A DNA stretch of 64,000 bases from a virus: positions 1 to 64,000 of the IMG/VR virus record IMGVR_UViG_3300010885_020282; one strand, given 5' to 3'. This document shows positions 47,681 to 63,965 of the stretch, piece by piece. Made by a program: the position numbers and the translations under genes. The notes below the pieces were generated by a model. The model saw nothing but the letters and a program-made list of their open reading frames with translations. It was not told the DNA's origin and did no database searches. Positions within the stretch are counted from its first letter, which is position 1. Every line of letters begins with the position of its first letter.

Positions 47681-49042
47681 ATGGCATATACCATTAATTT
47701 AACGGATGGCAGTATATTTGCAACAATTGCAGATGGTACCATCAACACAAGCTCTAGCATGATCCTAGTAGGTAAAAACTATGCTGGATATGGTGAGTTT
47801 TTAGACGAAAACTTTATACACTTGCTGGAGAACGGTGCTAATAATACCGCACCGAGTGCTCCGTTAACTGGCCAACTTTGGTGGGATAAAACCAACAATG
47901 TTATGAAAGTTTACAACGGTAGTACTTTCAAGGTTATATCAGCAAGTACAGCGTCTGCTAGTGCACCTAGTTCAAACGTAGCAGGCGACTTATGGTTTGA
48001 CACAGTTAATCAACAGCTAAAAGTCTACAATGGCAGCGCCTGGATCTTGGTTGGCCCTGCATCAACATCTGGCCAAGGCACATCTGGTGCAATTGTTACA
48101 ACTCTAGTAGACAATCTCAGTAACGACCACATTGTAATTCAATTATGGACCAATGATGTCATAGTTGGTATCATATCTAAAGACTTACCAGCATGGACTC
48201 CTGTTCCTTCTATCACAGGATTTGCTACAATTAGCCCGGGCTTCCAACTTAGTTCAACAGTTTCTGGTGCATACTTCCAAGGTACTGCTACCAATGCACT
48301 GGCCTTAGGCGGCGCAAATGCATCAACATTTTTGAGAGCCAACACAAACGTTACAACATCCGGCACGTTTGGTATTTTAAACAACGGTGGTCTCACAGTT
48401 GGAGAAAACCAAGATGGTAAACTACTGGTTAACGGGGTTAATTCCACAGTGAGTTTACAAAATCAAACAGCAGACGCTAATATCAGTATCATTGTCAATG
48501 ACGGTGGCGTACAAACCACAGCATTGTCTGTTAATGGCGCAACATCTCAAACAGGTGTGTTGGGCCTAACAAACTTAAATGCTAATGGCATTGGAAACTT
48601 GGGATCAAACTCAAGCTATTTTAACACAGTTTTTGCCACAGCAACCACAGCTCTATATGCTGACGTTGCAGAACGATTTGAAGCAGACGAACTGCTAGCA
48701 CCCGGGACAGTGGTTGAACTAGGCGGTGCAAAAGAAATTACTCGTGCTACTCAAGCACTCAGCGACACTGTATTTGGTGTTATCAGTACACGCCCAGCAT
48801 ATACCATGAACGGTGGCGCTGGCGATGACAATACACATCCTAGAGTGGCCATGACTGGGCGTGTACCGGTACAAGTTACTGGTAATATTAACAAAGGTGA
48901 CCGGTTGGTAGCAGCCGGCGATGGGCTAGCCCGTGCCGCACAACCCGGTGAAGCTACAGCATTTAATGTTATTGGTCGTTCACTCGAAACCAAGCATGCT
49001 AGTGGTAAACATGTGGTTGAAGCTATCGTAACAATTAAATAA
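47681..49042 (+). CDS. Tail fibre-like protein with C-terminal self-chaperone-like domain
   Basis: A 453-residue fibre-type protein. The N-terminal part has two copies of a G-x-LWxDxxNxxxKVYNGSxxW/F module (near residues 64-90, GQLWWDKTNNVMKVYNGS, and 100-125, GDLWFDTVNQQLKVYNGS), common in phage fibre proteins. The middle is Ser/Thr/Asn-rich beta structure. The C-terminal about 130 residues begin YADVAERFEADELLAPGTVV and contain VFGVISTRPAY and MTGRVPVQVTGNINKGDRLV, a domain often found at the end of phage fibres and related to assembly or intramolecular-chaperone domains. Two late promoters and a good ribosome site precede it. A host-binding role is likely but not shown. Confidence 0.75.
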   Translation: MAYTINLTDGSIFATIADGTINTSSSMILVGKNYAGYGEFLDENFIHLLENGANNTAPSAPLTGQLWWDKTNNVMKVYNGSTFKVISASTASASAPSSNVAGDLWFDTVNQQLKVYNGSAWILVGPASTSGQGTSGAIVTTLVDNLSNDHIVIQLWTNDVIVGIISKDLPAWTPVPSITGFATISPGFQLSSTVSGAYFQGTATNALALGGANASTFLRANTNVTTSGTFGILNNGGLTVGENQDGKLLVNGVNSTVSLQNQTADANISIIVNDGGVQTTALSVNGATSQTGVLGLTNLNANGIGNLGSNSSYFNTVFATATTALYADVAERFEADELLAPGTVVELGGAKEITRATQALSDTVFGVISTRPAYTMNGGAGDDNTHPRVAMTGRVPVQVTGNINKGDRLVAAGDGLARAAQPGEATAFNVIGRSLETKHASGKHVVEAIVTIK

Positions 49043-49057: not shown

Positions 49058-50056
49058 ATGACTTATTCACTAGGTGGCTTAATACAAGCAACAGACTATA
49101 ATGGTTTTGCAGCCAACACCGCAGGTGCCAATGTCAACGATATCTGGGCAACAGGTGCAACTGATAAAGGTTACGGCCAAAGTGCCTTGGCCACGGTATC
49201 AGCAGCCGGTACAGTCACAGCCACTCAGTGGGCTGGACTAGTTAACAACATTAGCAGTATGGCCAGTCACACTGGCACCAGTATCACAGCTCGTAGTGCA
49301 CCAACAGCAGGCAACACAATCAATATCCTGGCAGCTCTAAACACTGACCTAACCAATATCACAACCAACCGCGGAAACGCGGCAGCATCTGGTACTGAGT
49401 ATGGTACGTTTTCGGGTACTACTAGTCAAACTTCTGCTGTGGGATCTGGTACTGCTGCCTGGACCATTACATTCACACACACTGTGACTTTTGCTAGTGC
49501 CAATGCATTAAGATACTTCTTTAATGCTGGCGGTATTGTGCGCCTCAAATATGGCAAAAGCTCAACTGGAACCGACAATGATCCAGATTGGAACACCTTT
49601 GCCGGGCTGTGCGGGTCAATTAATTTGACAGGTCGTGTAAACGCTACCACCAACACAATTGCCGGCCAGGCCTACACCGGAACCACCCGTCTTGGTGGTG
49701 GTGGCGGTACACAAACTACTTTGGCCACAACCACAGGATGGTACAATTTAACTGGATCACCTACAACAATATTCCAGTTAAACAACGCTACAGCACCATA
49801 TTCGGGTGAATATATTCGTACCACAGCCACAGCAACATCCAGCACAGTATTGACCTTGGTCACCACCTGGGTCAGTGATGGTAGTTCAGGAGCTGGTACA
49901 TCAGCTAATATTACAGGTGGTACAGCAACCTCAAGTCCAAGCACCACAATCTCAGGCACAGCACCTACTACATTATGCACCTACTTGCCACCTAGTTCAA
50001 CATACTTGACCACTGCCGCTTGGGGCACACCTACTATTGCTGCCTCAGTAGCATAA
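49058..50056 (+). CDS. Virion structural/fibre protein, Thr/Ala/Gly-rich
   Basis: A 332-residue, low-charge, Thr/Ala/Ser/Gly-rich protein starting MTYSLGGLIQATDYNGFAAN. The central VTFASANALRYFFNAGGIVR and later NDPDWNTFAGLCGSINL are recognisable from structural proteins encoded beside fibres in cyanophage- and pelagiphage-type genomes. The rest resembles beta-sandwich or fibre-tip sequence, with many Thr-Thr and Gly-Gly pairs. AAGGAAGAA precedes the ATG, 15 bases after the previous stop. It is the last gene before a strong terminator and closes the late structural operon. Exact location in the virion is unknown. Confidence 0.7.
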   Translation: MTYSLGGLIQATDYNGFAANTAGANVNDIWATGATDKGYGQSALATVSAAGTVTATQWAGLVNNISSMASHTGTSITARSAPTAGNTINILAALNTDLTNITTNRGNAAASGTEYGTFSGTTSQTSAVGSGTAAWTITFTHTVTFASANALRYFFNAGGIVRLKYGKSSTGTDNDPDWNTFAGLCGSINLTGRVNATTNTIAGQAYTGTTRLGGGGGTQTTLATTTGWYNLTGSPTTIFQLNNATAPYSGEYIRTTATATSSTVLTLVTTWVSDGSSGAGTSANITGGTATSSPSTTISGTAPTTLCTYLPPSSTYLTTAAWGTPTIAASVA

Positions 50057-50076: not shown

Positions 50077-50103
50077 AAAGGGCCTGCGGGCCCTTTACCT
50101 TTT
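50077..50103 (+). terminator. Intrinsic terminator closing the structural operon
   Basis: AAAGGGCC and GGCCCTTT pair around a TGCG loop, followed by ACC and a TTTT run. This is the clearest Rho-independent terminator in the window, 20 bases after the stop at 50056. Confidence 0.88.
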
Positions 50104-50122
50104 GTAAATATTGCTGTATAAT
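50094..50122 (+). promoter_or_regulatory. Possible sigma70-type promoter of the rSAM/glycosyltransferase operon
   Basis: TTTACC (50094-50099), 17 bases, TATAAT (50117-50122). The -35 element overlaps the end of the terminator stem; +1 would fall at about 50129, on an ATG. It competes with the late motif at 50103. Confidence 0.4.
50103..50110 (+). promoter_or_regulatory. Late promoter (TGTAAATA) of the rSAM/glycosyltransferase operon
   Basis: TGTAAATA begins within the terminator T-run; predicted +1 near 50116, giving a leader of 7-13 bases depending on which ATG is used. Confidence 0.55.
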
Positions 50123-50128: not shown

Positions 50129-50437
50129 ATGAATACTGATGCTTTAATTATCCACGCACGGGCTAGATTTGATCATGAAACGGCACGTCGCGTTTTAAAA
50201 GAAAAATACCAAGCCCGAATGTTGTTTGCCTACAATGGCGGTATGTGGCAGGCTGGTCCTGAACTATTAACGTTACTGCAAGCTGTGCCAGTTGAAGATG
50301 ATGTAGTGTTGCTGGATCTATATGACAATCCTGTAAAAATCAATCCTGCGGAATTGCAGTATCTAGCTCTTGGACGTTGGCAAGAACAAATGAACGCCTG
50401 GCTAGTTGAGCATGATGAAATGAGTCGTAAACGATGA
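50129..50437 (+). CDS. Small protein of unknown function, first gene of the operon
   Basis: About 102-104 residues, starting MNTDALIIHARARFDHETAR (ATG at 50129) or two residues earlier (ATG at 50123); neither has a ribosome site, and the leader would be very short. Visible segments are LKEKYQARMLFAYNGGMWQA, ELLTLLQAVPVEDDVVLLDL and RWQEQMNAWLVEHDEM, a compact alpha/beta protein with a helical C-terminus. Similar small proteins appear in other T4-like aquatic phages without known function. It overlaps the following glycosyltransferase-like gene by four bases (ATGA). As leading gene of the operon it could be a regulator, partner or substrate protein, but nothing visible decides this. Confidence 0.65.
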   Translation: MNTDALIIHARARFDHETARRVLKEKYQARMLFAYNGGMWQAGPELLTLLQAVPVEDDVVLLDLYDNPVKINPAELQYLALGRWQEQMNAWLVEHDEMSRKR

Positions 50438-51240
50438 CCACTGGCGCACTAATACTTGCCTTCAACAATGAAGAAACAGATTATGTAGCCATGGCATCAT
50501 GGAGTGCTAGAAACATACGTCGGCATCTTGGAATCCCAACCTCAATTATAACTGACTGTGTTGATGCTGCCAAGCTTGTTGATTTTGATCACGTGATATC
50601 AGCCAATTCACAAACTGGCGGTACACGCTATTTTGAAGATTATGACCGAACAGTGACCTGGCATAATGCTGGCCGCACTGATGTATACAATTTAACACCA
50701 TATGATCAAACATTGGTGCTAGATGCTGATTATGTTGTGGCCTGTAATGATTTGAAAACAGTGTTAAATGCAACACAGGATTTTATGTGCCACCGGCATG
50801 CACTTGACTTGACAACAGGAACTCTGTTTACTAACCTTAACCAATTTGGTGATTATAATTTTCCCATGTGGTGGGCCACAGTCATAATGTTCCGTAAAAG
50901 TAATACAGCACAATACATTTTTGATTCAATGCAAATGGTACGTGCTAACTGGCAGCACTATCGAGACTTGTACGGAATTAGACAAAGTAACTATCGAAAC
51001 GACTATGCACTCAGCATTGCATTGGGTGTTGTGAGCGGGCACACACTACAAGTTGATAATATTCCTTGGCCACTGTACAGCCTTGTGCCCAGTGTGGGAT
51101 TATCAAGAGTGCACGAAGACTCGTATCAGATACAGTACACAGATTCACAAAACCGACTCAAACAAATGACTTTTAGTGGTTTAGATTTTCACGCCATGGG
51201 CAAAAAACATCTGGAGGCTGTAATTGCCAGTACTAGCTGA
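50434..51240 (+). CDS. GT-A-fold glycosyltransferase-like protein
   Basis: A 268-residue protein with the start of a nucleotide-diphospho-sugar transferase: strand GALILAFNNEE, helix with SARNIRRHLG, strand IPTSIITD, then LTPYDQTLVLDADYVVACND containing a DAD (residues 97-99), the DxD that binds metal and the sugar-nucleotide phosphates in GT-A enzymes. WWATVIMFRKS and the SVGLSRVHEDSYQIQY region follow as in GT8/GT24-like folds. It lacks membrane segments. Four-base overlap with the previous gene. Donor and acceptor are unknown; the neighbours suggest a common pathway with the SGNH-like and radical SAM proteins. Such genes in phages often modify DNA, virion glycoproteins or host surface sugars. 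Confidence 0.75.
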   Translation: MTTGALILAFNNEETDYVAMASWSARNIRRHLGIPTSIITDCVDAAKLVDFDHVISANSQTGGTRYFEDYDRTVTWHNAGRTDVYNLTPYDQTLVLDADYVVACNDLKTVLNATQDFMCHRHALDLTTGTLFTNLNQFGDYNFPMWWATVIMFRKSNTAQYIFDSMQMVRANWQHYRDLYGIRQSNYRNDYALSIALGVVSGHTLQVDNIPWPLYSLVPSVGLSRVHEDSYQIQYTDSQNRLKQMTFSGLDFHAMGKKHLEAVIASTS

Positions 51241-51988
51241 ACGTGGGTACGTAATTCCTGCTATCGATACTGAAGATGTTGATTATCTGTCCTGTGCAAT
51301 AAAACTAGCACAGTCTATACGTCAATGGCATCCTGATGCTGATATATCTGTGTTGACTGTGCGTAGGTGTAGTGATTCTGTTTTCAATCATGTGATACCT
51401 TTACCACATGGTGACCTAGGTGGCTACGCAAATGACTGGCAAGTGTTTGCTGCCAGCCCTTATAGACAAACTATCAAGCTTGAAGCAGACATGTTGATAG
51501 CCAGCCCCATTGATCACTGGTGGACCATGTTTGAACATCGGGATGTGGTTGTTAGTACAGGATGTAGAGATTTTTATGATCAACCTGCAACCACAAGACG
51601 TTATCGTAAATTTATCGATGATAACCAGTTACCAGATGTTTATAATGCCATTACCTATTGGAGATTGAGTGCAACTGCACGAGATTTTTTTAACCTAGTG
51701 CGTAGCATTTTTGAAAATTGGGATGAATACAAACAACTGGTAAAGTTTCCTGAAGACACTCCCAGCACAGATTTTGTGTATGCCATGGCAGCACAGATCA
51801 TAGGTCCAGAATTGATCACCATGCCGTTTGCTAGTTACCCACGTATAGTACACATGAAGCGACATATTATTGGAACGCAAACAGAAGATTGGACTCAAGA
51901 ACTGGTATGGGAACAAGACCCATTGCGAATACAAACTGTGGCACAATGGGGTGCATTTCATTACAACATAAAGGATTGGCTATCATGA
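51224..51988 (+). CDS. Second GT-A-like protein (EAD instead of DxD)
   Basis: A 254-residue relative of the previous class: GYVIPAIDTEDVDYLSCAIK, helix LAQSIRQWHPDAD, strand ISVLTV, then YRQTIKLEADMLIASPIDHW, where EAD (87-89) stands at the DxD position. DFVYAMAAQIIGPELITMPF and a conserved YPRIVHMKRH follow. The start is a TTG at 51224, inside the upstream gene, chosen because GGAGG lies six bases before it and no ATG or GTG fits nearby. The altered DxD may still bind metal, or the enzyme may be metal-independent or inactive. It overlaps its downstream neighbour by four bases. Confidence 0.72.
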   Translation: MPVLAERGYVIPAIDTEDVDYLSCAIKLAQSIRQWHPDADISVLTVRRCSDSVFNHVIPLPHGDLGGYANDWQVFAASPYRQTIKLEADMLIASPIDHWWTMFEHRDVVVSTGCRDFYDQPATTRRYRKFIDDNQLPDVYNAITYWRLSATARDFFNLVRSIFENWDEYKQLVKFPEDTPSTDFVYAMAAQIIGPELITMPFASYPRIVHMKRHIIGTQTEDWTQELVWEQDPLRIQTVAQWGAFHYNIKDWLS

Positions 51989-52317
51989 TGACTGAACAAG
52001 AGTTTTGGGATATTTTACATGATGCTCCGCCCCCCAACCCTGTATTCTTTAGGTTATATTATGACGAATTAGGGACTCCGGTAACTTATACCATGGAAGA
52101 TCTACCTGGTAACTATATAGAGATTGACGCAGCCACATTTGCTTTGAGTCCAGTTAATGTGCGTGTGCGCAATAATCAGTTGATAGAAATTGTTACCATG
52201 CGTTCACAAAAACTTGTACCCGGCCAAGCTGGTAACAAATGCCATCCCCGCGATGTTGCTGTGATTGTAACAACTGATACCAGCACACTATGGAAGAAAA
52301 AAGTCTATGAAAGTTGA
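51985..52317 (+). CDS. Small conserved phage protein of unknown function
   Basis: 110 residues, starting at ATG 51985 within the stop of the previous gene (ATGA). Visible segments are MTEQEFWDILHDAPPPNPVF, FRLYYDELGTPVTYTMEDLP and GNYIEIDAATFALSPVNVRV, then basic and ending KKKVYES. The order helix, strands, PGNYIEID turn suggests a small beta-rich domain. Comparable short proteins occur in other aquatic T4-like phages with no function assigned. It sits between two glycosyltransferase-like genes and overlaps the downstream one by 11 bases. It is one of only two products in the operon small enough to be a peptide substrate, but it has no Cys-rich core or leader-like boundary. Confidence 0.65.
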   Translation: MMTEQEFWDILHDAPPPNPVFFRLYYDELGTPVTYTMEDLPGNYIEIDAATFALSPVNVRVRNNQLIEIVTMRSQKLVPGQAGNKCHPRDVAVIVTTDTSTLWKKKVYES

Positions 52318-53230
52318 CATTGCAGATCTAGACTGCATTTATTTGAGTTACGATGAACCAGCTAGGGAAGAGTTTTGGGTCAAGATTCGCAACATGATTC
52401 CTTGGGCACAACGTGTGGATGGTGTCAAGGGTAGTGATGCCGCACACAAAGCGGCAGCAGCCGCAAGTGACACTGAAAGATTTATTTTAATCGACGGAGA
52501 TAACTTACCTGATCCTGCGTTCTTTAACCAAACACTCAACTTTGCCACAGCAGATCACGAGCAAGCAGTTTTTCGTTGGAGAGCACGTAATCACATCAAT
52601 GGACTCATGTACGGTAATGGTGGCCTAAGTTCGTGGACACGTACATTTGTAAACTCGATGCGCACACACGAAGCTACCGATGGGCGGGACGAAACAGTGG
52701 TAGAGTTTTGTTTTGACCCACTATACTGGGCCATGCATGATTGTTACTCTACTACATATCCCAATGGATCTCCCAAACACGCCTGGCGTGCTGGTTTCCG
52801 TGAAGGTGTCAAGATGTGTCTAGACCGTGGGCGCAAGCCTAGCACCGCTGAGTTTAGACAACGTGTGCATCAGCGCAACCTAGACAATCTAACTGTGTGG
52901 CAAAATGTTGGCTTGGATGTTGACCAGGGAGCCTGGGCCATTGCTGGTGCTAGAATGGGCACGTACAAAACAATGCTGACAGACTGGGATTTTCGTGAAG
53001 TGCAATGGTTTGATGCACTAGAAGCAATCTGGGAATCAATCAAGTCAACTGACCCTGCTGAGATTATTCAACAGTACTCTGGTCCGTTGCAAACTCAATT
53101 GGATCTGCCAACAGCAATAATGATGCCTGATCAGAGTCAATTCTTTAAACATCATTATCGCAGTAATTGGCACAATCTCGGCGTTATGACAAGAGAGATC
53201 GATGTAATAAGAAAGCAAGAGGGTTGGTGA
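52307..53230 (+). CDS. Glycosyltransferase-like protein with DGD motif
   Basis: A 307-residue protein with DLDCIYLSYDEPAREEFWVK at the N-terminus, PWAQRVDGVKGSDAAHKAA and TERFILIDGDNLPDPAFF, where DGD (63-65) would be the metal/nucleotide-sugar-binding DxD of a GT-A-like fold. NHINGLMYGNGGLSSW and FDPLYWAMHDCYSTTYPNGS lie in the middle and a helical region with AWRAGFREGVKMCLDRG follows. Similar proteins are found in cyanophage-like genomes as putative glycosyltransferases. The ATG at 52307 lies 11 bases inside the previous gene; the stop overlaps the SGNH-like gene by one base. Substrates are unknown. Confidence 0.7.
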   Translation: MKVDIADLDCIYLSYDEPAREEFWVKIRNMIPWAQRVDGVKGSDAAHKAAAAASDTERFILIDGDNLPDPAFFNQTLNFATADHEQAVFRWRARNHINGLMYGNGGLSSWTRTFVNSMRTHEATDGRDETVVEFCFDPLYWAMHDCYSTTYPNGSPKHAWRAGFREGVKMCLDRGRKPSTAEFRQRVHQRNLDNLTVWQNVGLDVDQGAWAIAGARMGTYKTMLTDWDFREVQWFDALEAIWESIKSTDPAEIIQQYSGPLQTQLDLPTAIMMPDQSQFFKHHYRSNWHNLGVMTREIDVIRKQEGW

Positions 53231-53931
53231 TGCGTTTATTGGTCAATGGATGTAGTTTTAGTCGTGGTCCCATTGCCTGGCCCAATCACGTGGCTCGTTT
53301 GTTAAATGCAGATCTTGTTAACCTAGCACAGTCGGGTGCAGGCAACAACTACATTGCCCAAACAACACAAGCAGAGCTTGCACGATGCGACTATGATCTT
53401 GTGCTGGTTATGTGGAGCGGGCTAGAACGCATTGATATACAAGTGGAGCGCATAGAAGATTTTGATCAAACACTGTGCACTAGCTTGTATCAAAGCAGTC
53501 AAAACGACTGGGCTGAAAAAATAGTAGAACCTGTAAACGATCAAGACTGTGTACAAAAAGACTGGGTGTTTGGTGTAGGATATTTGAATGGTGATCGATT
53601 CCTAACAAGCAATGGGCTGTTTACTAAACAATACATGTACCAGTCATTGAGCCAGCACACACAACGTAGCATGTATCACATGATCAGTTTGCAGAGTTAT
53701 TGCAAATCTCGTGGCATACCGTTTGTGGCAACATTCTATCAAAACTATGTGACTGAGTTTGATCATTTCCCTACACTAAAAGCTCAGTTAGACTGGAACA
53801 ATATCTATAATCAAGTCAACTTGTTTGATCTTGTCAAGCAAACAAAGGACTTTGATACAGATGGGCTACACCCTGGTGCAACGGCATATGAACGCTGGGC
53901 TGTTAATTTATATAATTTTATTTCAAAATGA
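53230..53931 (+). CDS. SGNH-hydrolase-like protein
   Basis: A 233-residue protein with the SGNH/GDSL order: nucleophile loop LVNGCSFSRG with Ser9 (GCS in place of GDS), QSGAGNNYIAQTT supplying the Gly and Asn of blocks II/III (36-40), strand YDLVLVMWSGLERIDI, and near the C-terminus DTDGLHPGATAYERWA with Asp211 and His214 of the catalytic dyad. Enzymes of this family remove or transfer acetyl or acyl groups on sugars and lipids. The ATG at 53230 overlaps the previous stop (TGATG); an in-frame start 21 codons earlier lies inside the upstream gene. It overlaps the next gene by four bases. A role in trimming or acylating a glycan made by the neighbouring glycosyltransferases is plausible. Confidence 0.75.
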   Translation: MRLLVNGCSFSRGPIAWPNHVARLLNADLVNLAQSGAGNNYIAQTTQAELARCDYDLVLVMWSGLERIDIQVERIEDFDQTLCTSLYQSSQNDWAEKIVEPVNDQDCVQKDWVFGVGYLNGDRFLTSNGLFTKQYMYQSLSQHTQRSMYHMISLQSYCKSRGIPFVATFYQNYVTEFDHFPTLKAQLDWNNIYNQVNLFDLVKQTKDFDTDGLHPGATAYERWAVNLYNFISK

Positions 53932-54905
53932 TCACACTACCAAACATAGATGGAAAAATTTGGAATCTTGAACAAAAGATTGTTGACATAATAGATTGTG
54001 TAATAAATCAACAGTCCTTGACTATTAGTCTAAACAACGAAGGGCCCGACGCTGCCGAGCTGGGCTTGTATTCTTTGTTAGACGCTATTTGTAGACAATA
54101 CAATTACCCTAAACAAAATATACATATCTTAACTTGTAATCAGTTAGAATATCATCATGAGTATTGTATAGAAAAACAATCACCTCTGTATGTGTCTGAA
54201 TCACAGCAATTTGCACTAAAGCACCAATTCCCAACAAAAACATTCGGTGACAGCTTCAAACACTTTGGTTTGTTTATAGGTCGCAGTAATTGGTTACGAT
54301 TATGGCTTGCTAGTTATATGTACAATTGTCACCGAAATCAAACAAAGATGACTTTTCACTACGATCCTAAACTGGACTTTCATCAGGATCACCTGGGCTT
54401 AGACGATCTAATCAGATTTAAATCAGACTTAATACAGGATCTAAATCCAATGCAATTGATTTCTGATTCCCCAATAGTAGATCAAACTGTAGAAACATAC
54501 CCTATACTAACACCGGCACATTTTAATATAAGCAAAGTATACCATTCTTTCTTTTTAGAAATAGTATGCGAAACGTACAGCCGTGGCGCTAGTTTTTACC
54601 CCACTGAAAAAATCTGGCGCCCAATCATCAACCGCACCCCTTTTATTGTTCAGGGTCCTCAGAATTATACCAACAACCTGCATCGTTTAGGGTTTAAAAC
54701 TTTTAGTAACTGGTTTGATGAAAGTCATGGCCAAGATGATTACAGTTATCAACCCGTGGGTATTTGTACTACATTGAATCAATTGGCTGCATATTCAACA
54801 GAAGAGTTAGAGGGCATATATATTGACATGACTGATACATTAGAACACAACTATCAAGTCTTGATGGAATTAACTGACAAAAAGATAGTAGAGATTTTTA
54901 AATGA
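53928..54905 (+). CDS. Glycosyltransferase-like protein with TEK...PFI C-terminal domain
   Basis: A 325-residue protein, unrecognised N-terminal half (residues 1-190), followed by a C-terminal domain about 200-300: FFLEIVCETYSRGASFYPTE, KIWRPIINRTPFIVQGPQNY and LHRLGFKTFSNWFDESHG. The pattern E-t...TEKi..P.....PFIv......Y...L..LGFKTF....DES is shared with the protein at 56271-57422 and recalls the donor-binding region of GT10-type fucosyltransferases (TEK..da...g.vPI). This suggests a GT-B-like enzyme, but the similarity is by eye. Overlaps both neighbours by four bases (ATGA), so it is embedded between the SGNH-like and the first radical SAM gene. Confidence 0.6.
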   Translation: MITLPNIDGKIWNLEQKIVDIIDCVINQQSLTISLNNEGPDAAELGLYSLLDAICRQYNYPKQNIHILTCNQLEYHHEYCIEKQSPLYVSESQQFALKHQFPTKTFGDSFKHFGLFIGRSNWLRLWLASYMYNCHRNQTKMTFHYDPKLDFHQDHLGLDDLIRFKSDLIQDLNPMQLISDSPIVDQTVETYPILTPAHFNISKVYHSFFLEIVCETYSRGASFYPTEKIWRPIINRTPFIVQGPQNYTNNLHRLGFKTFSNWFDESHGQDDYSYQPVGICTTLNQLAAYSTEELEGIYIDMTDTLEHNYQVLMELTDKKIVEIFK

Positions 54906-56296
54906 GCCAGGACAATGAAACACTAACCAACAAAAGCAACTTCATGGGATCTGCCGAGCAAATGAAAGACTCCCTGGGTCCTGCTCTTTGCCTGGCTAAA
55001 TGGAAGCAAGTGAGTCTACACTTGCCTACTGGGCTCAACAACTCGTGTTACCATCCTCCCTTGCAATCAATTCCAGTGGAGGGATTGGCAGATAACCCTG
55101 GACAGTTGCACAACACTCCGCACAAAAAAGCACAACGTGTGTTAATGCTAAAGAATGAACGCCCTGCAGAATGCCAGTACTGTTGGAACATGGAAGACCT
55201 AGGCGAAATGAGTGACCGGCATTATCGTTCAGGTGAACCCTGGGCCGCAGTTGACCTAGAAAAAATTCGTAACAGCACAGGACTCGAAGATGACATTATC
55301 CCCAGTTACGTGGAAGTTAATTTTAATCATGCTTGTAATCTTAAATGTAGTTATTGCTCACCTCAGTTTAGTTCAAGTTGGCAAGACGAAGTGGAAAGAC
55401 ACGGAGCATACCCCACCCATCGCCCTCATAATGCTCCTGAGCACTTTAGTGGTAATCGCAGACCTATTCCTGCTAGGGCCGATAACCCTTATGTAGATGC
55501 TTTCTGGGCTTGGTGGCCCACCTTGTACCCACAACTAAAACATTTTCGCATGACCGGCGGCGAACCACTAATGGATCGAAACACCTATCGAGTGTTTGAC
55601 TATGTGTTGGCCTTGCCCAAACCCGATTTGCATTTAAATGTAACCAGTAACTTTAGCGTAGAAGATGTGTTGTTTGAAAAGTACCTGGGCTATGTCAAAC
55701 AGCTATGTGACACCAATATTGAACACTTCATGCAGTATGTGAGCCTTGACACAGGTAATTTTTTACAAGCCGAATACATACGGCATGGTCTCAACGGCGC
55801 AAGATTAATTGACAATGTGTTGCGTTACCTAGATGAAGTTCCTGCAAGAAACAGTTTGACATTTATTGTTACTATGAACAATCTCTCTGTAACAGGATTC
55901 CAAAGTTTGATGGAATGGATACTTGTGCTAAGAACTACATTTAGCGACACCTATCAACGTGTGTGGTTTGATACCCCTGTATTACGTGCACCCTCTTGGC
56001 AAAGCCTGCAAATCTTGCCTGAAAGTTATGCTGTCATGTTAGAACGCACAGCTGATTGGATGCAAGAGCGTGTTACTGCAGGATTGCACGGCTTTAAAGA
56101 TTATGAAGTGCAACGTTTGCGGAGAGACATCGCCTGGATGCGAGAAGGACAAAAGCTTGATAATATTCAAAACAAAGCAGACTTTTATCGTTTCTTTAGC
56201 GAGCACGATCGTAGACGAGATACAGACTTCTTGCAAACTTTTCCTGAAATGAAGTCCTGGTGGACAGAATGTGAAGCGCATGCTCGGCAATCGTAA
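54902..56296 (+). CDS. Radical SAM protein 1 with N-terminal twitch-type domain
   Basis: A 464-residue member of the twitch-domain radical SAM group seen in phages. Auxiliary-cluster cysteines come first: C30 (LGPALCLAKW), C49 (NNSCYHPP) and the pair C91/C94 (ECQYCWNMED). The radical SAM motif is C145-x3-C149-x2-C152 (NHACNLKCSYC), followed by the SAM-binding RMTGGEPLM and a barrel with YVSLDTGN. The C-terminal 90 residues are helical and end in DTDFLQTFPEMKSWW, shared with the paralogue at 57419. It uses an ATGA overlap with the previous gene. These enzymes generate a 5'-deoxyadenosyl radical; the substrate could be a peptide, a sugar or a nucleotide. The HPP motif after C49 also occurs in the 57419 paralogue. 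Confidence 0.85.
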   Translation: MSQDNETLTNKSNFMGSAEQMKDSLGPALCLAKWKQVSLHLPTGLNNSCYHPPLQSIPVEGLADNPGQLHNTPHKKAQRVLMLKNERPAECQYCWNMEDLGEMSDRHYRSGEPWAAVDLEKIRNSTGLEDDIIPSYVEVNFNHACNLKCSYCSPQFSSSWQDEVERHGAYPTHRPHNAPEHFSGNRRPIPARADNPYVDAFWAWWPTLYPQLKHFRMTGGEPLMDRNTYRVFDYVLALPKPDLHLNVTSNFSVEDVLFEKYLGYVKQLCDTNIEHFMQYVSLDTGNFLQAEYIRHGLNGARLIDNVLRYLDEVPARNSLTFIVTMNNLSVTGFQSLMEWILVLRTTFSDTYQRVWFDTPVLRAPSWQSLQILPESYAVMLERTADWMQERVTAGLHGFKDYEVQRLRRDIAWMREGQKLDNIQNKADFYRFFSEHDRRRDTDFLQTFPEMKSWWTECEAHARQS

Positions 56297-57422
56297 ACTA
56301 ATACTAGACAGATTTTGTGAAGTATACTTGTTATTAAAACCCTGGGTAGATGAAATATTTTGGGATTTCTCCACAGTAGATCCTGAACCCGGTGCAATAT
56401 ACATGATTGGACGACAGCAACTGATCAACAATCGTGAAAAATTTCGGGACATGGCCGCTAGCGGATTATACACAATGGTGTTTAACAACAGTGCCGAAGG
56501 ATCGTGGACATTAGAAAGTCAAATAAAACAACTCAAACTTGAAGAACTAGCACTGGATAAAAGGATATTGTTTGTAGGCGGTGCACCAATTAACCTAGAC
56601 TTTGCGTGTTTATCACATGAGCACTTTTTGGCCAGCATACTGGACTACGATGAAAACGTTGCTGTGCAATCTCATACCGATGACATATTCTCCAAGCATG
56701 ACAAGCCATATAAGTTCTTATTTTTAAATGGTCGTGCCAGACCGCATAGGAAATATCTGTACGAACGATTCAAAAGAAATGGTACACTAGACCATGCTTT
56801 ATGGACCATGTTGGATGCCAAGCCTACTGTGGTTAGAACATTTGATTTATACGAGAACGACACAAATGTCATGGCCACACCAACACCATTGCAACGCTTG
56901 CCAGACCACTACGAAGTAGACAGATATCGTGATCCCACGTTTGGGCCAATTGTGCTGGATCAATCCAACATAAAACAAGAATTATTTAGAAATGAATGGG
57001 GTGATATTTACCTTGCACCCGAACCATATGTGGACACATATTTTAGTCTGGTTACAGAAACAGTATGTGCAGAAAGTACATACAGTTTTAGAACAGAAAA
57101 AATAGCTAAACCACTTGTCATGGGTCACCCATTTATTGTGGCATCAACGCCGGGGTTTTATCAAGACTTACACACCCTAGGATTTAAAACATTTGCCGGT
57201 ATCATTGATGAAAGTTTTGATTCAATTGACAACGCTCAACTTAGAATGGATCGAATTGTGGACATTGTAACAGATTTATGTCAGCAAGACCTTGCGAGTT
57301 TCCTTCGGGCGTGTTATAATGTATGTAAATACAATCAGCAACATCTTGTGGAAATTCAAGCAAAAGATCGAAAAGAATTTCCTGATCGTTTCTCCCAATT
57401 TATAAATCAATACATTCAATGA
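56271..57422 (+). CDS. Unknown protein sharing the TEK...PFI domain
   Basis: About 380 residues, starting at GTG 56271 or ATG 56280; both are in frame, inside the upstream gene, with no strong ribosome site. The middle has DKPYKFLFLNGRARPHRKYL, a segment typical of uncharacterised cyanophage proteins with possible glycosyltransferase folds. The C-terminus contains TVCAESTYSFRTEKIAKPLV, GHPFIVASTPGFYQDLHTLG and FKTFAGIIDESFD, the same domain as in the protein at 53928-54905. The two may be paralogous transferases acting on different acceptors. It lies between two radical SAM genes and overlaps the next by four bases (ATGA). Confidence 0.6.
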   Translation: MKRMLGNRKLILDRFCEVYLLLKPWVDEIFWDFSTVDPEPGAIYMIGRQQLINNREKFRDMAASGLYTMVFNNSAEGSWTLESQIKQLKLEELALDKRILFVGGAPINLDFACLSHEHFLASILDYDENVAVQSHTDDIFSKHDKPYKFLFLNGRARPHRKYLYERFKRNGTLDHALWTMLDAKPTVVRTFDLYENDTNVMATPTPLQRLPDHYEVDRYRDPTFGPIVLDQSNIKQELFRNEWGDIYLAPEPYVDTYFSLVTETVCAESTYSFRTEKIAKPLVMGHPFIVASTPGFYQDLHTLGFKTFAGIIDESFDSIDNAQLRMDRIVDIVTDLCQQDLASFLRACYNVCKYNQQHLVEIQAKDRKEFPDRFSQFINQYIQ

Positions 57423-58750
57423 ATGATCTAGAATTCCGTACTACAGTATTGGACCCACTTAGCGATAGTTTTTGTGCAGCCAAATGGTACAATGCAACCA
57501 TTTGGTTGGGCAGTGGCATGACCACCAGTTGCCATCATCCCCCGGCCCATTTAGTCGACAAAGATAAAGTCGGTGCTAACCCTAGGCTGTTGCACAACAC
57601 TGATCAAAAGAAAGACGATCGCAGAAAGATGCTCACAGGCGAACGACCTGCAGGCTGCGAATACTGTTGGAAAATTGAAGACATGGGTCGCGATGCCATC
57701 AGTGACCGTGTGTATAAAAGTAAAATTTATCCTATCCACGCATTAAAGGAAGCATATGAAACACCTGTTGAACAAGATGTCAACTTACGTACCTTGGAAA
57801 TTGCTTTTGACCGTACTTGCCAGTTTGCTTGTAGCTACTGCAATCCTGCTTTTAGTAGCACATGGGTTCGAGATATACGAAACAACGGCGCTTACAAGGG
57901 CTTGGTTAGCGATGGCAGGAATCATTTTACTCATGATCACGCTGCCGCTCAACTTTACAAATTCGGAGAAAGAAATCCCTACGTGGACGCATTCTTTGCC
58001 TGGTGGGAAAGCGACCTCCATAGAACACTCCAAGAGCTTAGAATAACCGGTGGTGAGCCACTGATGTCAGGATATACCTGGAAACTGATTGATTGGTTCA
58101 AAGAAAACCAAGGCAAGTCAACCACACGACTTGCTATCAACAGCAATCTTGGTACTGATGTAGATGTTGATAGACTGCTATCCAGTATTGACGGAATGGC
58201 AATAGATCTTTACACGTCAAATGAAGCTGTGGGAGTCCAAGCCGAATACATACGTGATGGACTTGTGTGGCAAGACTGGGTTGACAATGTTGAACGTTTG
58301 TTAGCAAGCAAAAAGTTCCGTGGCATACACGTCATGTGCACAATCAATGCTTTGTGCTTGGACACCTTGGATCAACTGCTAGAGTGCATAATGGAATGGA
58401 AATCCAAACACGGTCGTGACGCTATCAGTTTTACACTCAATATTTTGCGTTTTCCTAGCTTTCAGTCCCCCTTGGTGTTGCCCAATACAACACGCATGAT
58501 TTACCGGCAAAGACTAATCACATGGTTAGAACACTACCACAATTCAATATTCTTACATGAGCATGAGCTCAATCATGTTCAACGACTAGTAGATTACCTA
58601 GACGTAGTAAAGACCCCGCACAGTGAAGCATTTGAAATGCCCAAACTCCTAAATGATTTTAAACAGTTCTATACACAGTACGATACTCGGCGTAGCAAGA
58701 ACTTTGTAAAAACATTTCCAGCATTAACTGATTGGTACAACACCTTATGA
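57419..58750 (+). CDS. Radical SAM protein 2 with N-terminal twitch-type domain
   Basis: A 443-residue paralogue of the 54902 protein. It has the same layout: C19 (SFCAAKW), C38 in TSCHHPPAH, C80/C83 (GCEYCWKIED), then the radical SAM cysteines C134, C138 and C141 (DRTCQFACSYCNPAF), followed by RITGGEPLM. The segment NPYVDAFFAWW matches the first paralogue's NPYVDAFWAWW, and both end in a helical DTRRSKNFVKTFPAL-type tail. Differences are concentrated in the barrel's second half, suggesting distinct substrates. Four-base overlaps join it to both neighbours. A duplication of the radical SAM gene with the transferase gene between the copies seems likely. Confidence 0.85.
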   Translation: MNDLEFRTTVLDPLSDSFCAAKWYNATIWLGSGMTTSCHHPPAHLVDKDKVGANPRLLHNTDQKKDDRRKMLTGERPAGCEYCWKIEDMGRDAISDRVYKSKIYPIHALKEAYETPVEQDVNLRTLEIAFDRTCQFACSYCNPAFSSTWVRDIRNNGAYKGLVSDGRNHFTHDHAAAQLYKFGERNPYVDAFFAWWESDLHRTLQELRITGGEPLMSGYTWKLIDWFKENQGKSTTRLAINSNLGTDVDVDRLLSSIDGMAIDLYTSNEAVGVQAEYIRDGLVWQDWVDNVERLLASKKFRGIHVMCTINALCLDTLDQLLECIMEWKSKHGRDAISFTLNILRFPSFQSPLVLPNTTRMIYRQRLITWLEHYHNSIFLHEHELNHVQRLVDYLDVVKTPHSEAFEMPKLLNDFKQFYTQYDTRRSKNFVKTFPALTDWYNTL

Positions 58751-60444
58751 ACTTTGATCAAGCACTAGACGCATGCCGTCGAGAATTTGATATTGTTGCT
58801 GAAATTGATTTAGCAAAATGGGGCACAGATTATGCTCAAGGCCAACAATGGTTGGAAACGATTTTGCGAGAGATTCGTCGCGATGTATTTGCGCCCCAAG
58901 AACTCATTGTGTTATTACATCGACAAGATTTTTTCACTCCTGATAGTCGAGTTGGGCTGATCTTAAAGAACCTACAAGTACTGCTCAACGAAGTAGATAT
59001 CAGCAATTATTTTGTACGTGTGCTCTCCAGCGATCCCAACATTGATCAAACTCGCTTGTGGTTGTTGTCAAACAGTACCGACACTGTGCCTCTGACCATT
59101 GATGCAGTTGATGACCAGTTTGATGCAGTAGAGTTAACACACCACCCGGCTAGCTTAAAAGAAACGTATCAATACGGCAGTAGCAATCCTTTAAAAATTA
59201 ATATACAAGACTTGTCCTTGCGCGAGCGTGAATTACTCACAGAATCAAAAACGTTTTGCATGTATCCTTGGATTCATTTACACGCATTTCCCACGGGTGA
59301 TGCACATCCTTGTTGCTACAGCGAAATGTCTCATCAGATTGGACACACAAAAGAAAATACCCTAGCCGAAATATGGAATGATCAGCCCATGCGTGATTTG
59401 CGCATACGCATGCTCAACAACGAGACTAGTGGTGCGTGTAAGAAATGTTATGAACAAGAAGCCAACGGGTTTTTTAGTGGACGACAAAGCGCCAACAAAC
59501 ATCACGGGCATCATGTTCAACGTGCGTTGGCTACGCATGATAACGGGCACCTAGATCAATTTGAAATGACATACTGGGATATTCGTTTCAGTAATCTTTG
59601 TAATTTAAGTTGCCGCAGTTGCGGGCATATTTTTAGTTCAAGTTGGTACAAAGATCAAAGCCAATTGGCCGGGCCCGAATGGGCGCAACGACATCAAGTA
59701 TTAAACTTTGCCGGGCGTACTCAAACTGATATCTGGGAACAACTGGTGCCGCACCTGGATTACGTGGAACAAATTTACTTTGCTGGTGGTGAGCCCTTGA
59801 TGATGGACGAGCATTATCGTATTCTTGAAGAGCTTGAACGTCGTGGCCGCTTTGATGTTAGATTAATCTACAACACCAACTTCACACAAGTACGACTCAA
59901 AGATCGCATGGTATTTGATTATTGGAAACGATTCGACAGCGTTAGTGTGGGCGCCAGTTTAGATGACATGGGGCCACGTGGCGAATACGTTCGAAAAGGC
60001 ACACGCTGGGCCACAGTTGAAGCCAATCGTGAAAGAATGATGCAGGAATGTCCACGTGTGGACTTTTATATTAGTCCCACACTTAGCATTTTAAACGCTT
60101 GGAGCCTGCCAGACTTTCATCGCAATTGGGTTGAACAAGGCTTTATCCGTGCACAAGATTTAAATGTCAACATACTGCAAGACCCTGTGCACTATAGAAT
60201 TGATATTGCACCCAGTGAATACAAAGCACGTTTAACTGAAAAGTATCAACAACACATTGAATGGCTACGCCCACAAGACGCTCTGGCCCGTGCCACGGTG
60301 GGGTTTGAAAGTGCTGTTACACTCATGAATAGCACAGACAATACTCATTTTATCGATACGTTTTGGCGCAAAACACACGAGCTTGACAGTATTAGAAACG
60401 AATCTTGGTCCGACATCATACCCGAATTAAAGGCACTATTATGA
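58747..60444 (+). CDS. Radical SAM protein 3 with an extra N-terminal domain
   Basis: 565 residues from the ATG at 58747 (ATGA overlap with the previous stop). The first about 165 residues form an additional domain (CRREFDIVAEIDLAKWGTDY, ELIVLLHRQDFFTPDSRVG, ISNYFVRVLSSDPNIDQTRL) that is not present in the other radical SAM proteins and that I do not recognise. Then come the twitch-type cysteines C171 (FCMYPWIHLH), C189/C190 (HPCCYSE) and C231/C234 (CKKCYEQE), and radical SAM C285, C289, C292 (NLCNLSCRSCGH) with FAGGEPLM. The arrangement CxxPW...PCC...CxxCW/Y is that of the twitch radical SAM family. The fused domain may bind the substrate or a partner. Confidence 0.83.
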   Translation: MNFDQALDACRREFDIVAEIDLAKWGTDYAQGQQWLETILREIRRDVFAPQELIVLLHRQDFFTPDSRVGLILKNLQVLLNEVDISNYFVRVLSSDPNIDQTRLWLLSNSTDTVPLTIDAVDDQFDAVELTHHPASLKETYQYGSSNPLKINIQDLSLRERELLTESKTFCMYPWIHLHAFPTGDAHPCCYSEMSHQIGHTKENTLAEIWNDQPMRDLRIRMLNNETSGACKKCYEQEANGFFSGRQSANKHHGHHVQRALATHDNGHLDQFEMTYWDIRFSNLCNLSCRSCGHIFSSSWYKDQSQLAGPEWAQRHQVLNFAGRTQTDIWEQLVPHLDYVEQIYFAGGEPLMMDEHYRILEELERRGRFDVRLIYNTNFTQVRLKDRMVFDYWKRFDSVSVGASLDDMGPRGEYVRKGTRWATVEANRERMMQECPRVDFYISPTLSILNAWSLPDFHRNWVEQGFIRAQDLNVNILQDPVHYRIDIAPSEYKARLTEKYQQHIEWLRPQDALARATVGFESAVTLMNSTDNTHFIDTFWRKTHELDSIRNESWSDIIPELKALL

Positions 60445-61655
60445 ATATTCCACACGATCAATTCTGCGTACTGCCCTGGGTTAGTCTAGAAGCCTCGCCT
60501 ATTGGTACTGTGCGTCCGTGTTGTCTAGCCGACGATGAGATTGTAGATGACACAGGCAATAAATTTGTATTAGCCACAGCTGACTTCTCTAACATACAAA
60601 ACAGCAGTCACATGCGCCAATTGCGTGAACAGTTTTTGCGTGGAGAAAAACCACAGACTTGCCGCAAGTGTTGGAATGAAGAAAGTGCAGGGCGCACTAG
60701 CAAACGTATGCACACCCTAGATCGACTCAAGCACATGTTGCCAGATCAAGACTGGACTGTAGATGCCAAGCCACTAATGTTTTTGGATTTGAAACTGGGC
60801 AACATCTGCAACTTGAAATGTCGCATTTGTGGATCTTGGTCCAGCTCACAATTTGCCGCAGAGGAAATCAGTTTTACTCGCCCCGAGCAACGCAAGCAAA
60901 GTCATGCATATCAAATGTTAAGAGCCGGTGCCTGGCCACAAGACAACACACAGTTTTGGAATCAAATTGATGAATCATTAAATGACATACGCTATATTGA
61001 ATTCACTGGTGGTGAGCCATTCATGATTCGTGAACACTTTGTGATGTTACAAGGCATTGTAGACCGTGGCATTGCAGGCAACGTAGAAATACATTACAAC
61101 ACAAATGGTACAATTTATCCTGAAGAAGCTGAAGAGATCTGGAAGCATTTCAAAACAGTAGAAATTGCATTCAGTATTGACGACCTAGGAGATCGATTTG
61201 AATACCAACGTACTAATGCCAAATGGCCCGAAGTGCAAGAAAACATCGAAAAGTTTTTTAAACTAAAAAGATACCTACCAAGTATTATACAATTACAAGT
61301 GTGTACGACTGTGAATATTTTCAACGTTCGATACATAGATCAAGTAGCGCAATGGTTAGATGGCAGACCTTTTAATTTTGTATACTGGAACATGATGCAT
61401 GATGCTTGGTATTTCAGTATTGCCAACTTACCCGGTCCAGCCAAACAAGCAATCCAAGAGCATTTGAATTCAGCTGACATACCCCAAAAATATCAAGCAG
61501 AATTTCAACGCATTATAGAATTCATGACTCGAGGCCCAGACAGCAGTGGAGAAGTCTTACTGAGAGAAATTGCCAATCTAGACCGGCGCCGAGAACAAAA
61601 TCTCAACATAGCCATGCCTGAACTGGCTAAAATGTTGAACTACGTTGGACCATGA
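60441..61655 (+). CDS. Radical SAM protein 4, twitch domain type
   Basis: 404 residues from the ATG at 60441, overlapping the previous stop (ATGA). It is the plainest member of the set: C9 in FCVLPWVSLE, C27/C28 in RPCCLAD, C74/C77 in TCRKCWNEES, radical SAM C123, C127 and C130 (NICNLKCRICGS), then IEFTGGEPFM and a barrel strand EIHYNTNGT. EIAFSIDDLGDRFEYQRTNA lies in the position where the barrel binds substrate in related enzymes. The C-terminus is helical. This arrangement of single C, CC, CxxC and CxxxCxxC agrees with the twitch-domain radical SAM family; the substrate is not known. Confidence 0.86.
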   Translation: MNIPHDQFCVLPWVSLEASPIGTVRPCCLADDEIVDDTGNKFVLATADFSNIQNSSHMRQLREQFLRGEKPQTCRKCWNEESAGRTSKRMHTLDRLKHMLPDQDWTVDAKPLMFLDLKLGNICNLKCRICGSWSSSQFAAEEISFTRPEQRKQSHAYQMLRAGAWPQDNTQFWNQIDESLNDIRYIEFTGGEPFMIREHFVMLQGIVDRGIAGNVEIHYNTNGTIYPEEAEEIWKHFKTVEIAFSIDDLGDRFEYQRTNAKWPEVQENIEKFFKLKRYLPSIIQLQVCTTVNIFNVRYIDQVAQWLDGRPFNFVYWNMMHDAWYFSIANLPGPAKQAIQEHLNSADIPQKYQAEFQRIIEFMTRGPDSSGEVLLREIANLDRRREQNLNIAMPELAKMLNYVGP

Positions 61656-62941
61656 CCGCTCCCAAAACACTATGCCTAGCGCCTTGGACGCATACATATC
61701 TATCGCCTCAAACCGAGCGCAGGATGTGTTGTGCATCTAGAGAGCCTGCACAAAGTTTTCGACAATACATAGATACTAGTGCAGGTACCGGCGAATATCA
61801 ACCAGTTAGTCTAGAACAGCACTGGAATAGTGATCACATGCGTGATGTACGACAGCGCATGATAGCTGGCGAAACTCTGCCAGAATGTGATGTATGCAAT
61901 AGCAAACTGTTGAATACTGCTGTGTACAGAGACTATTTCAACCAGTTGTTTGCACACAAACTAGACGAAGTTTATACATCTACAGATGCAACAGGTGCAA
62001 CTACAATGAAACCTGTGAGTTGGGACTATCGGTTTAGCAATCTCTGCAACTTCAAGTGTCGCATGTGCGGTGACATGTTGTCAAGCTCTTGGGAAACTGA
62101 ACAACGACAGCATGGCATGGTAGACCTTGACAATCCCAAAAACAACTGGATGATTCCTGAAGTTCGCAAAACTATTAGCCAATTTCAAGACACTCAGATT
62201 GAACAAGAATTCTCAGATGCTGTGGAACAACATCGTGTTGAGGAAGTGTACTGGGTAGGTGGTGAGCCATTGATGTACGAACAACATTGGCGTTACATGA
62301 GACGCATAGTTGAACTAGGTGACGGGCCTCGGGTGTATGCAAGATACAATACCAATCTTTCTAGAGTTGATTATCGTGGCGTTAATCTATATCGAGATAT
62401 TCTGGCTAATGTTCGCGATTGGCAGATTTGTGCCAGTCTTGACGGAACAGGGGTAATAGGAGAATACATCAGAACCGGACTTGACTATGACGAATTTTGT
62501 AGTAACTTTGAACAAGGTCTAACCTATCAACGTAGCCGGAGACAAATGCGCCTAGACTTTACACTCACACTGCCAGGCATGTTTGAAGTTGGCGCCATAC
62601 AGCAACTGGCAACTCGGTATGATGTAGACATTTTGGCCAAAGTAGTGTTCTCTTTTAGTCCAGACATTGTCATGAGTCCATTAGCGTTACCACGTGAGTT
62701 ATTGGAGCCCTGGATTGACGAGCTGGTGTCTTGTAGCACTGGCGCTGTTCAAGATGTGCTAACACAACTAAAACTACGACCCACATTTGCAGAACAATGG
62801 CCAGATCAATATCAAGCAGGGCTTGCAAAAGGCAAAGCTCGTGTGTTAAAATTAGAAAGCATACGCACAGCCTCTACTTCAATGGCTGAAATATTGAGCC
62901 AAAGGCCGGCAATAAAGAAATGGTGGGATCAAATTGATTGA
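61652..62941 (+). CDS. Radical SAM protein 5, twitch domain type
   Basis: 429 residues; ATGA overlap with the previous gene. Cysteines follow the same order: C8 (TLCLAPWTHT), C26/C27 (RMCCASRE), C79/C82 (ECDVCNSK), then radical SAM C132, C136, C139 (NLCNFKCRMCGDM) and WVGGEPLM. The Trp of the usual CxxCW is replaced by Asn. The RFSNLCN and SSSWE surroundings resemble radical SAM 3, so numbers 3 and 5 are probably the closer pair. The C-terminus is helical and basic. The final enzyme of the tandem set; the next gene starts eight bases before its end from a TTG. Confidence 0.85.
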   Translation: MTAPKTLCLAPWTHTYLSPQTERRMCCASREPAQSFRQYIDTSAGTGEYQPVSLEQHWNSDHMRDVRQRMIAGETLPECDVCNSKLLNTAVYRDYFNQLFAHKLDEVYTSTDATGATTMKPVSWDYRFSNLCNFKCRMCGDMLSSSWETEQRQHGMVDLDNPKNNWMIPEVRKTISQFQDTQIEQEFSDAVEQHRVEEVYWVGGEPLMYEQHWRYMRRIVELGDGPRVYARYNTNLSRVDYRGVNLYRDILANVRDWQICASLDGTGVIGEYIRTGLDYDEFCSNFEQGLTYQRSRRQMRLDFTLTLPGMFEVGAIQQLATRYDVDILAKVVFSFSPDIVMSPLALPRELLEPWIDELVSCSTGAVQDVLTQLKLRPTFAEQWPDQYQAGLAKGKARVLKLESIRTASTSMAEILSQRPAIKKWWDQID

Positions 62942-63965
62942 AATAGATTTACGCAGTGAACAAGGTCACCTGCACACAGTGTACGTCAACGTACATGACA
63001 ACAGTCTAAGTCAAAAGTGGTTGGCTGCATTGAATCACCTAATCGAGCACAACTACCATCTAGAAAAAAATTACTGCTGGTTTGGCTTTCCTGGTAATTC
63101 TAGAAATCCCGAATACTTGTGTACGCAGATAAACCGCAGTATCAAGGCAATCAATGCCGCAGGACTAGGTTATACTATCAATGATTGGTTTAGTCCTGCC
63201 AATACAATAGCTTCAGATGATGGAATTGATCATGCACACATGAATGACTTGCACAGATACTTTGAAGACCTGCAAGGAGTAAGTGGTGCACTGAGTCCCT
63301 ATTACCAGGCAGCTGATGCTGAAACACGCTGGCACATACGACAGTTGAACTTGTTGTGTCATGAGCATGAAAGTTTGATACTAAGCATACGCAAAGCAAA
63401 CACAGCCCCAGATTGGCAACGACCCAGCCAACTCATGTGTTGGTTAAATGCTCCACGGTTTGCACTAGATGCTGAGGATTATGAATTGTTTGGTGTAGAC
63501 ACAATCAGTCGTGATCTTGGAGGGGTTTATCTGGGTGTAAACAAAGCTGTGGGTAAACACCATTGGGAAGTGTTCAACGATGAAGGCCGGGACAGTCGCA
63601 TTGCAGAACTAACTACCAGCACACTTAAATCGCAAACAGAAGCAGCCGGGGATTTTGATATAGAGTGGGGACAAAGTCCTGCAGGGCACGACTGGCAAGA
63701 ATCTAAACTGACAGACTTTCGCACTTGGCTAACAGCAAACGGGTTTGATCCCAAGGACCCAAGGCTAACAATTGGGCACCCGCAAGTGGCACAAGTTGAT
63801 TTGGATCGTAGTTTTGGTACAAACAATCATCGCGACATATGGAACTGCTTAAATACACACCTAGACGTGGCAGCTATACGCACAGAAACTGCCAGTGCTG
63901 AATACAATTATCGCTGGAGCGATGCAGATTTTGTTCAGCGTCAGATTGACATCATCAAAGGATAA
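62934..63965 (+). CDS. Unknown protein downstream of the radical SAM genes
   Basis: A 343-residue protein, from a TTG at 62934 (no ATG near; overlap eight bases). It opens IEIDLRSEQGHLHTVYVNVH and contains LIEHNYHLEKNYCWFGFPGN, an acidic central part HAHMNDLHRYFEDLQGVSGA, LILSIRKANTAPDWQRP and a C-terminal GFDPKDPRLTIGHPQVAQVD. Several His and Asp residues cluster (HAHMNDLH, LLCHEHES), which could bind metal, but no family can be named from sight. Proteins of this kind occur in other T4-like aquatic phages. It is encoded in the same operon and may act on the same substrate as the radical SAM enzymes. Confidence 0.65.
   Translation: MIEIDLRSEQGHLHTVYVNVHDNSLSQKWLAALNHLIEHNYHLEKNYCWFGFPGNSRNPEYLCTQINRSIKAINAAGLGYTINDWFSPANTIASDDGIDHAHMNDLHRYFEDLQGVSGALSPYYQAADAETRWHIRQLNLLCHEHESLILSIRKANTAPDWQRPSQLMCWLNAPRFALDAEDYELFGVDTISRDLGGVYLGVNKAVGKHHWEVFNDEGRDSRIAELTTSTLKSQTEAAGDFDIEWGQSPAGHDWQESKLTDFRTWLTANGFDPKDPRLTIGHPQVAQVDLDRSFGTNNHRDIWNCLNTHLDVAAIRTETASAEYNYRWSDADFVQRQIDIIKG

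Follow-up and report, generated by a model that had tools for sequence, protein, structure and literature searches.

A conserved gene block in T4-like phages pairing five twitch-type radical SAM enzymes with glycosyltransferase-like proteins

Groups of genes for radical S-adenosylmethionine (SAM) enzymes have already been described in T4-like phages. The Campylobacter phages CP220 and CPt10 encode 11/12 such enzymes, including a cluster of five (PMC2853527); the 183 kb T4-like environmental genome TARA_ERS488813_N000010 encodes 12, together with grx and paaD (PMC5332604); and regions of glycosyltransferase (GT) and radical SAM genes in pelagimyophages provide a further precedent, their authors favouring O-chain alteration as the role of GT8-rich phage regions (PMC7029224). 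The subject of this work is a block of 14 open reading frames (ORFs), all on the + strand, which extends from 50129 (the ATG of X1) to 63965 in positions 1-64000 (the whole stretch analysed, hereafter the window) of the 74,675-bp IMG/VR virus record IMGVR_UViG_3300010885_020282. It encodes five radical SAM enzymes (rS1 to rS5), the GT-like proteins GTa, GTb and GTc, the small proteins X1 and c0, a protein designated Y, and three accessory proteins (Table 1). The record is that of a T4-like phage, judging by its portal, tail, baseplate and gp55-like sigma-factor families, and it is probably a fragment, as its closest portal relatives sit on contigs reaching 353 kb.

The five radical SAM genes are intact. 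Their products match NF033640 (N_Twi_rSAM, the NCBIfam model for twitch domain-containing radical SAM proteins) along the whole model at 280-400 bits, against a curated cut-off of 170 bits, and so belong to a subfamily without an assigned reaction. CxxxCxxC motifs were present in 406/406 radical SAM proteins of the window and related loci, their columns being approximately 100% conserved in each clade, and the N-terminal cysteines that would hold an auxiliary cluster, of which there are four in rS1 and rS2 and five in rS3-5, are at least 99% conserved in relatives. The first-pass annotation, which had proposed five twitch-type enzymes with additional N-terminal cysteines, is therefore borne out. 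In a FastTree phylogeny of 209 of these proteins, with long branches flagged, rS4 and rS5 are each split off by a single branch, as are rS1, rS2 and rS3 when extra copies in other slots are set aside. As each enzyme represents a separate clade that has retained all of its cluster cysteines, these patterns argue for five distinct and conserved reactions. Radical SAM enzymes require SAM, iron-sulphur (Fe-S) clusters and a reductant; that an obligate virus keeps five such costly, distinct enzymes in an invariant order implies that their product is worth the expense. Elsewhere in the window, a sixth and weaker radical SAM gene (13191-14210, - strand; 42 bits with N_Twi_rSAM) adjoins a RecN/SMC-like AAA gene. 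A role in anti-phage defence was considered and rejected, the only matches to viperin being weak ones, of 20-33 bits, from the shared radical SAM core.

The block was found to be a stable unit across a family of T4-like phages that are uncultured and very large. A scan anchored on rS3 recovered 80 IMG/VR loci, several of them near-copies, meaning the counts are not independent; upstream genes were counted in the 72 loci with at least 8.5 kb of upstream sequence, and downstream genes in the 56 with at least 6 kb downstream. Both rS1 and rS2 were present in 72/72 loci, followed by GTc (68), GTb (62), GTa (55), c0 (52) and X1 (47), while rS4, rS5 and Y were present in 56/56. The core order was inverted in 0/80 loci, the 17 that depart from it having extra or differently labelled radical SAM copies, whereas the accessory and insert genes vary between loci. 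The co-occurrence survey proposed in the first-pass annotation accordingly found the core together, and in fixed order, in 80 loci. A second, independent anchor, the portal, identified 17 records, in which Y occurred once in 12, including 8/8 of those that reach 190 kb; the other five, of 57-92 kb, may be fragments. Each of 17 larger records (99-353 kb) contained 6-21 N_Twi_rSAM matches, and among related records those of 148-353 kb had 7-21 such genes. These data bear on the proposal, previously made for CP220/CPt10 (PMC2853527), that such genes are unrelated auxiliary functions boosting host metabolism, with no single product. The differences in insert genes among loci accord with this explanation, but it appears very unlikely given that five paralogues, GTc and Y share one invariant order across 80 loci, and that Y and many N_Twi_rSAM genes were also recovered from the portal anchor.

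The arrangement of the block also points to joint expression. At nine junctions neighbouring genes share 4 bp (ATGA-type), and at the other four they overlap by 8, 11, 17 and 26 bp, depending on start choice; as the printed sequence has the ATG of rS3 at 58747, its overlap with rS2 is 4 rather than 1 bp, and the range initially given as 1-26 bp becomes 4-26 bp for what is otherwise the expected 14-gene run. The terminator and promoter anticipated ahead of the block are both present (Table 1). A TTTACT/TTGACA-17-TATAAT promoter recurs in many loci, its -10 box stopping 5-7 nt short of X1, although a subset of loci lack it; the two-box score was 8.53, whereas shuffling of the bases gave 6.22 and, in 200 shuffles, no more than 6.95. 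The window's own promoter was given too low a score by the script, owing to start choice, and reaches 10 of 12 when taken separately. Fixed order, near-universal co-occurrence in 80 loci, tight overlaps and a promoter in many loci together mean that the suggestion of one co-expressed pathway is well supported. The proximity of the promoter to the X1 ATG (50094-50131) would make the transcript nearly leaderless, an arrangement kept in many relatives. The sequence TATAAATA occurred at chance level within the window, and the idea that the block is under T4-type late promoter control was dropped.

Table 1. Features of the block and its upstream flank, in window coordinates (pLDDT, predicted local distance difference test of AlphaFold2 (AF2) models).
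Feature	Positions	Strand	Details
FIB1, virion/fibre-like	47681..49042	+	PHROG virion-structural matches; homologues in 46/80 loci, also upstream of the module there
FIB2, Ser/Thr-rich fibre-like, candidate acceptor	49058..50056	+	homologues in 53 loci; alignment
Terminator hairpin	50077..50096	+	AAAGGGCCTGCGGGCCCTTT; 8-bp stem, T-rich tail; 3' of the upstream fibre-like gene
Sigma70-type promoter	50094..50122	+	TTTACC-17-TATAAT directly 5' of X1; TATAAT at 50117-50122
X1, about 100 aa, unknown	50129..50437	+	first gene of the module
GTa, GT-A-like	50434..51240	+	hhalign 99% with GTb; no Pfam/PDB match on its own
GTb, GT-A-like	51224..51988	+	homologous to GTa; phrog_1903 (function not assigned)
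c0, about 110 aa, unknown	51985..52317	+	conserved, between GTb and GTc
GTc, GT-A fold (supported by model)	52307..53230	+	highly conserved, mean column identity 64%; AF2 pLDDT 89
SGNH/GDSL-like hydrolase, accessory	53227..53931	+	sub-threshold Pfam GDSL/DUF6071; rare (4 loci)
FTa, accessory, shared C-terminal domain	53928..54905	+	GT identity unconfirmed
rS1, N_Twi_rSAM	54902..56296	+	NF033640 291.7 bits
FTb, accessory, shared C-terminal domain	56271..57422	+	domain common to FTa
rS2, N_Twi_rSAM	57419..58750	+	NF033640 287.6 bits
rS3, N_Twi_rSAM, N-terminal extension of about 165 aa	58747..60444	+	NF033640 400.1 bits, residues 166-563
rS4, N_Twi_rSAM	60441..61655	+	NF033640 338.3 bits
rS5, N_Twi_rSAM	61652..62941	+	NF033640 280.2 bits
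Y, core protein after rS5	62934..63965	+	AF2 pLDDT 90; in 56/56 loci

The case for sugar transfer is strongest for GTc. Its model's best Foldseek match was the PBCV-1 capsid glycosyltransferase (2p6w; probability 1.00, E=1.8e-4), with SunS also matched, and although template modelling scores against GT-A matches were low (0.31-0.47), a GT-A fold is supported by the model, which places GTc nearest to enzymes that glycosylate proteins or peptides. Searches of Pfam and the Protein Data Bank (PDB) with GTa and GTb gave no significant match, and the best match of GTb to a known GT was a weak one to glycogenin (E=0.78), such that their sequences support a GT-A assignment only weakly. Hence, of the three GT-A-like proteins first proposed, GTc was upheld by its fold, while the other two are at best tentative. 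The fucosyltransferase-like (FT-like) label given to FTa and FTb was not supported at the sequence level, since 0/44 members of this family matched any Pfam GT family and a PDB search returned no credible match.

Whether such enzymes would act on the virion or on the cell can be considered from the proteins around them. One alternative is that the infecting phage alters the host surface, whether lipopolysaccharide or another glycan, for example to keep competing phages out, with the GTs using host lipid-linked intermediates and host flippases exporting the product. The host-type sigma70 promoter of many loci suggests that the block is expressed separately from late virion genes, a periplasmic-type peptidase S11 is encoded within the same run, and O-chain alteration is what the pelagimyophage authors favoured (PMC7029224). 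Read by eye, a Bacteriovoracaceae contig (L102) also has N_Twi_rSAM near polysaccharide-exporter-like ABC (ATP-binding cassette) genes, alongside PqqD-like and carbamoyltransferase genes. Yet membrane segments are absent from all core families, and therefore no exporter is encoded; nor is there a flippase, polymerase or ligase among the core families. Moreover, GTc most resembles protein- or peptide-glycosylating enzymes, and the conserved upstream neighbours are fibre genes. We therefore consider a host-surface acceptor possible but doubtful, and favour a virion protein.

The core protein Y gave a confident AF2 model, which had no fold match among solved structures (best E=0.08). Ten BFVD proteins matched it at E<=0.001, all of them uncharacterised, including one of 768 aa that may be a radical SAM-Y fusion, as yet unconfirmed. 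A bacterial radical SAM-Y gene pair, lacking GTs, was found in one Bacteriovoracaceae metagenome-assembled genome (L090), and Y was present in 18/291 genomes sampled from the same phylum, mostly standing alone; a scan with bacterial Y detected no viral relative. With just one bacterial pair, and most bacterial Y genes alone, the idea that Y is an obligate radical SAM partner was rejected. Radical SAM enzymes of the SPASM/twitch type commonly have peptide substrates, and those of the block might likewise act directly on c0, X1 or a fibre, in the manner of ribosomally synthesised and post-translationally modified peptide (RiPP) pathways, with Y as the recognition partner and the GTs acting later. 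The L090 pair without GTs, the PqqD-like gene adjoining N_Twi_rSAM at L102 in the same genome, and the small conserved c0 and X1 proteins in the core would all fit. Nevertheless c0 and X1 look folded, with no evident conserved core-peptide or leader pattern, no RiPP recognition element or PqqD-like family was found in the phage core, and Y is without a known fold, making this explanation distinctly unlikely.

The + strand run continues beyond 63965, through a carbamoyltransferase (64068-65555; 45/56 loci) and the peptidase S11 (65552-66304). Past it lie an opposite-strand amidinotransferase, two further FT-like proteins and an epimerase, adjoining the + strand gene GTbig, the C-terminal part of which is homologous to GTc (hhalign 99.5%); in one locus (L007:9607-11814), repeated FDFSWHPD...FGTQWQ...GGP units precede this GTc-like part. 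The carbamoyltransferase (Carbam_trans_N 120.4 bits, Carbam_trans_C 163.3 bits) has as its nearest relatives the antibiotic-type O-carbamoyltransferases NovN, GdmN and TobZ. T4-like phages glucosylate their DNA, and modified bases can be substrates of carbamoyltransferases, raising the alternative that the block hypermodifies phage DNA bases by glycosylation, carbamoylation and radical tailoring. Against this, besides the antibiotic-type affinity of the carbamoyltransferase, PF00303 (thymidylate synthase/hydroxymethylase) was absent from 14/16 related records, several of 316-353 kb, and the usual hydroxymethyl handle is therefore missing; this is the least probable explanation, and a highly improbable one. 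On the other side of the block, a 4717-aa ORF (32708-46861) lies 5' of the fibre genes, with no Pfam match in its first 1400 residues.

The block's probable role is to make an unusual sugar modification and to tailor it chemically. The original suggestion of a glycan or other modification on virion or host is plausible in its first part, given the GTc fold, the GTa-GTb homology, the co-travelling sugar and tailoring enzymes and the comparison with Vibrio phage K566 below; the acceptor, whether virion, host surface or peptide, is conjectural. Our preferred reading, which we hold tentatively, is a soluble phage-encoded pathway of glycan building and radical tailoring, with a virion protein as the most likely acceptor. 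We infer its substrate, reaction order and acceptor as follows. Soluble enzymes would assemble the glycan in the cytoplasm, with GTa, GTb and GTc transferring sugars, and the sugars and their decorations would be set by the variable enzymes that travel with the block in relatives, namely an epimerase, an aminotransferase family, a GDP-mannose dehydratase-like protein, the carbamoyltransferase and the amidinotransferase. Each radical SAM enzyme, with a SAM-cleaving cluster and an N-terminal auxiliary cluster, would remove a hydrogen from a C-H bond at a single position, and thereby dehydrogenate, epimerise or deoxygenate a sugar, or modify the residue that bears the glycan. Y might be the last-step enzyme or a shared partner, and the acceptor would be a virion protein such as the fibres encoded just 5' of the block.

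Further genes would be expected if radical SAM turnover were of high flux. Genes for the SAM synthetase MetK (12 loci; 430.8 bits), a protein resembling methylthioadenosine/S-adenosylhomocysteine nucleosidase (18) and an Fe-S protein of SUF/PaaD-like type (9) lie within or next to the block, with 12/12 MetK and 9/9 PaaD loci falling within the 18 nucleosidase loci; in 16 larger records, the nucleosidase fold was found in five. None of the three was among the ORFs examined in the window's record, itself a fragment. A more elaborate version, in which a five-step radical assembly line is core to a jumbo T4-like lineage, some members having their own SAM synthetase, nucleosidase and Fe-S protein, and in which a radical-modified glycan on virion proteins is made with Y as a new-fold partner, is unlikely in full. 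Several observations weigh against the preferred pathway. As GTs, GTa and GTb are weakly supported and the FT-like genes lack any sequence support; the sigma70-type promoter and the terminator part the block from the fibre genes, meaning it is not simply co-transcribed with virion genes; the fibre genes are linked to it by position alone; bacteria have relatives of Y that stand by themselves; and only a minority of records have MetK (6/16) or the Fe-S protein (2/16). Separately, a contig in a Rickettsiales bin (L104 and L105; G003 contig C6), which looks like misbinned phage, has X1-GTa-GTb-GTc homologues followed by many radical SAM-like genes.

The five-enzyme block is absent from the phages of the public collection searched, though clusters similar in spirit are already known. 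No protein match to GTc or Y was found by tblastn in 50,697 phage records, K566 included, and no arrangement of five fixed paralogous N_Twi_rSAM clades in one phage operon was described in the literature found. A jumbo-phage paper (PMC12619734) was set aside as a precedent, as its abstract describes a different lineage. The number of radical SAM genes, initially thought remarkable, stands at five in one unit, a claim softened by the CP220/CPt10 (PMC2853527) and TARA (PMC5332604) genomes. CP220 likewise groups five radical SAM genes with one for a glycine amidinotransferase and two of sugar-transferase fold, in a single run close to its baseplate genes (PMC2853527). However, its radical SAM enzymes score <=31 bits with NF033640, its two transferases failed to align with GTa or GTb, as did CPT_0082 with GTc, and homology was rejected: the content is alike, the families are not. 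The likeness of TARA_ERS488813_N000010 lies in its many radical SAM and Fe-S support genes (PMC5332604). With the present block, N_Twi_rSAM passes from scattered matches to a five-enzyme set that is defined and has conserved partners, making its function testable; the block also gives a way into the question of why large environmental phages of the T4-like type hold so many glycan and radical SAM genes. The isolate Vibrio phage K566/K567 (OZ196521) encodes N_Twi_rSAM proteins, two of them over the cut-off, in genes interleaved with two GT8 genes and one GT4-like gene. Its radical SAM enzymes differ from those of the window, at about 22-24% identity, its GTs have no demonstrable homology to GTb, and one candidate Y tried by hhalign yielded nothing. 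K566 constitutes an independent link between N_Twi_rSAM enzymes and sugar transfer.

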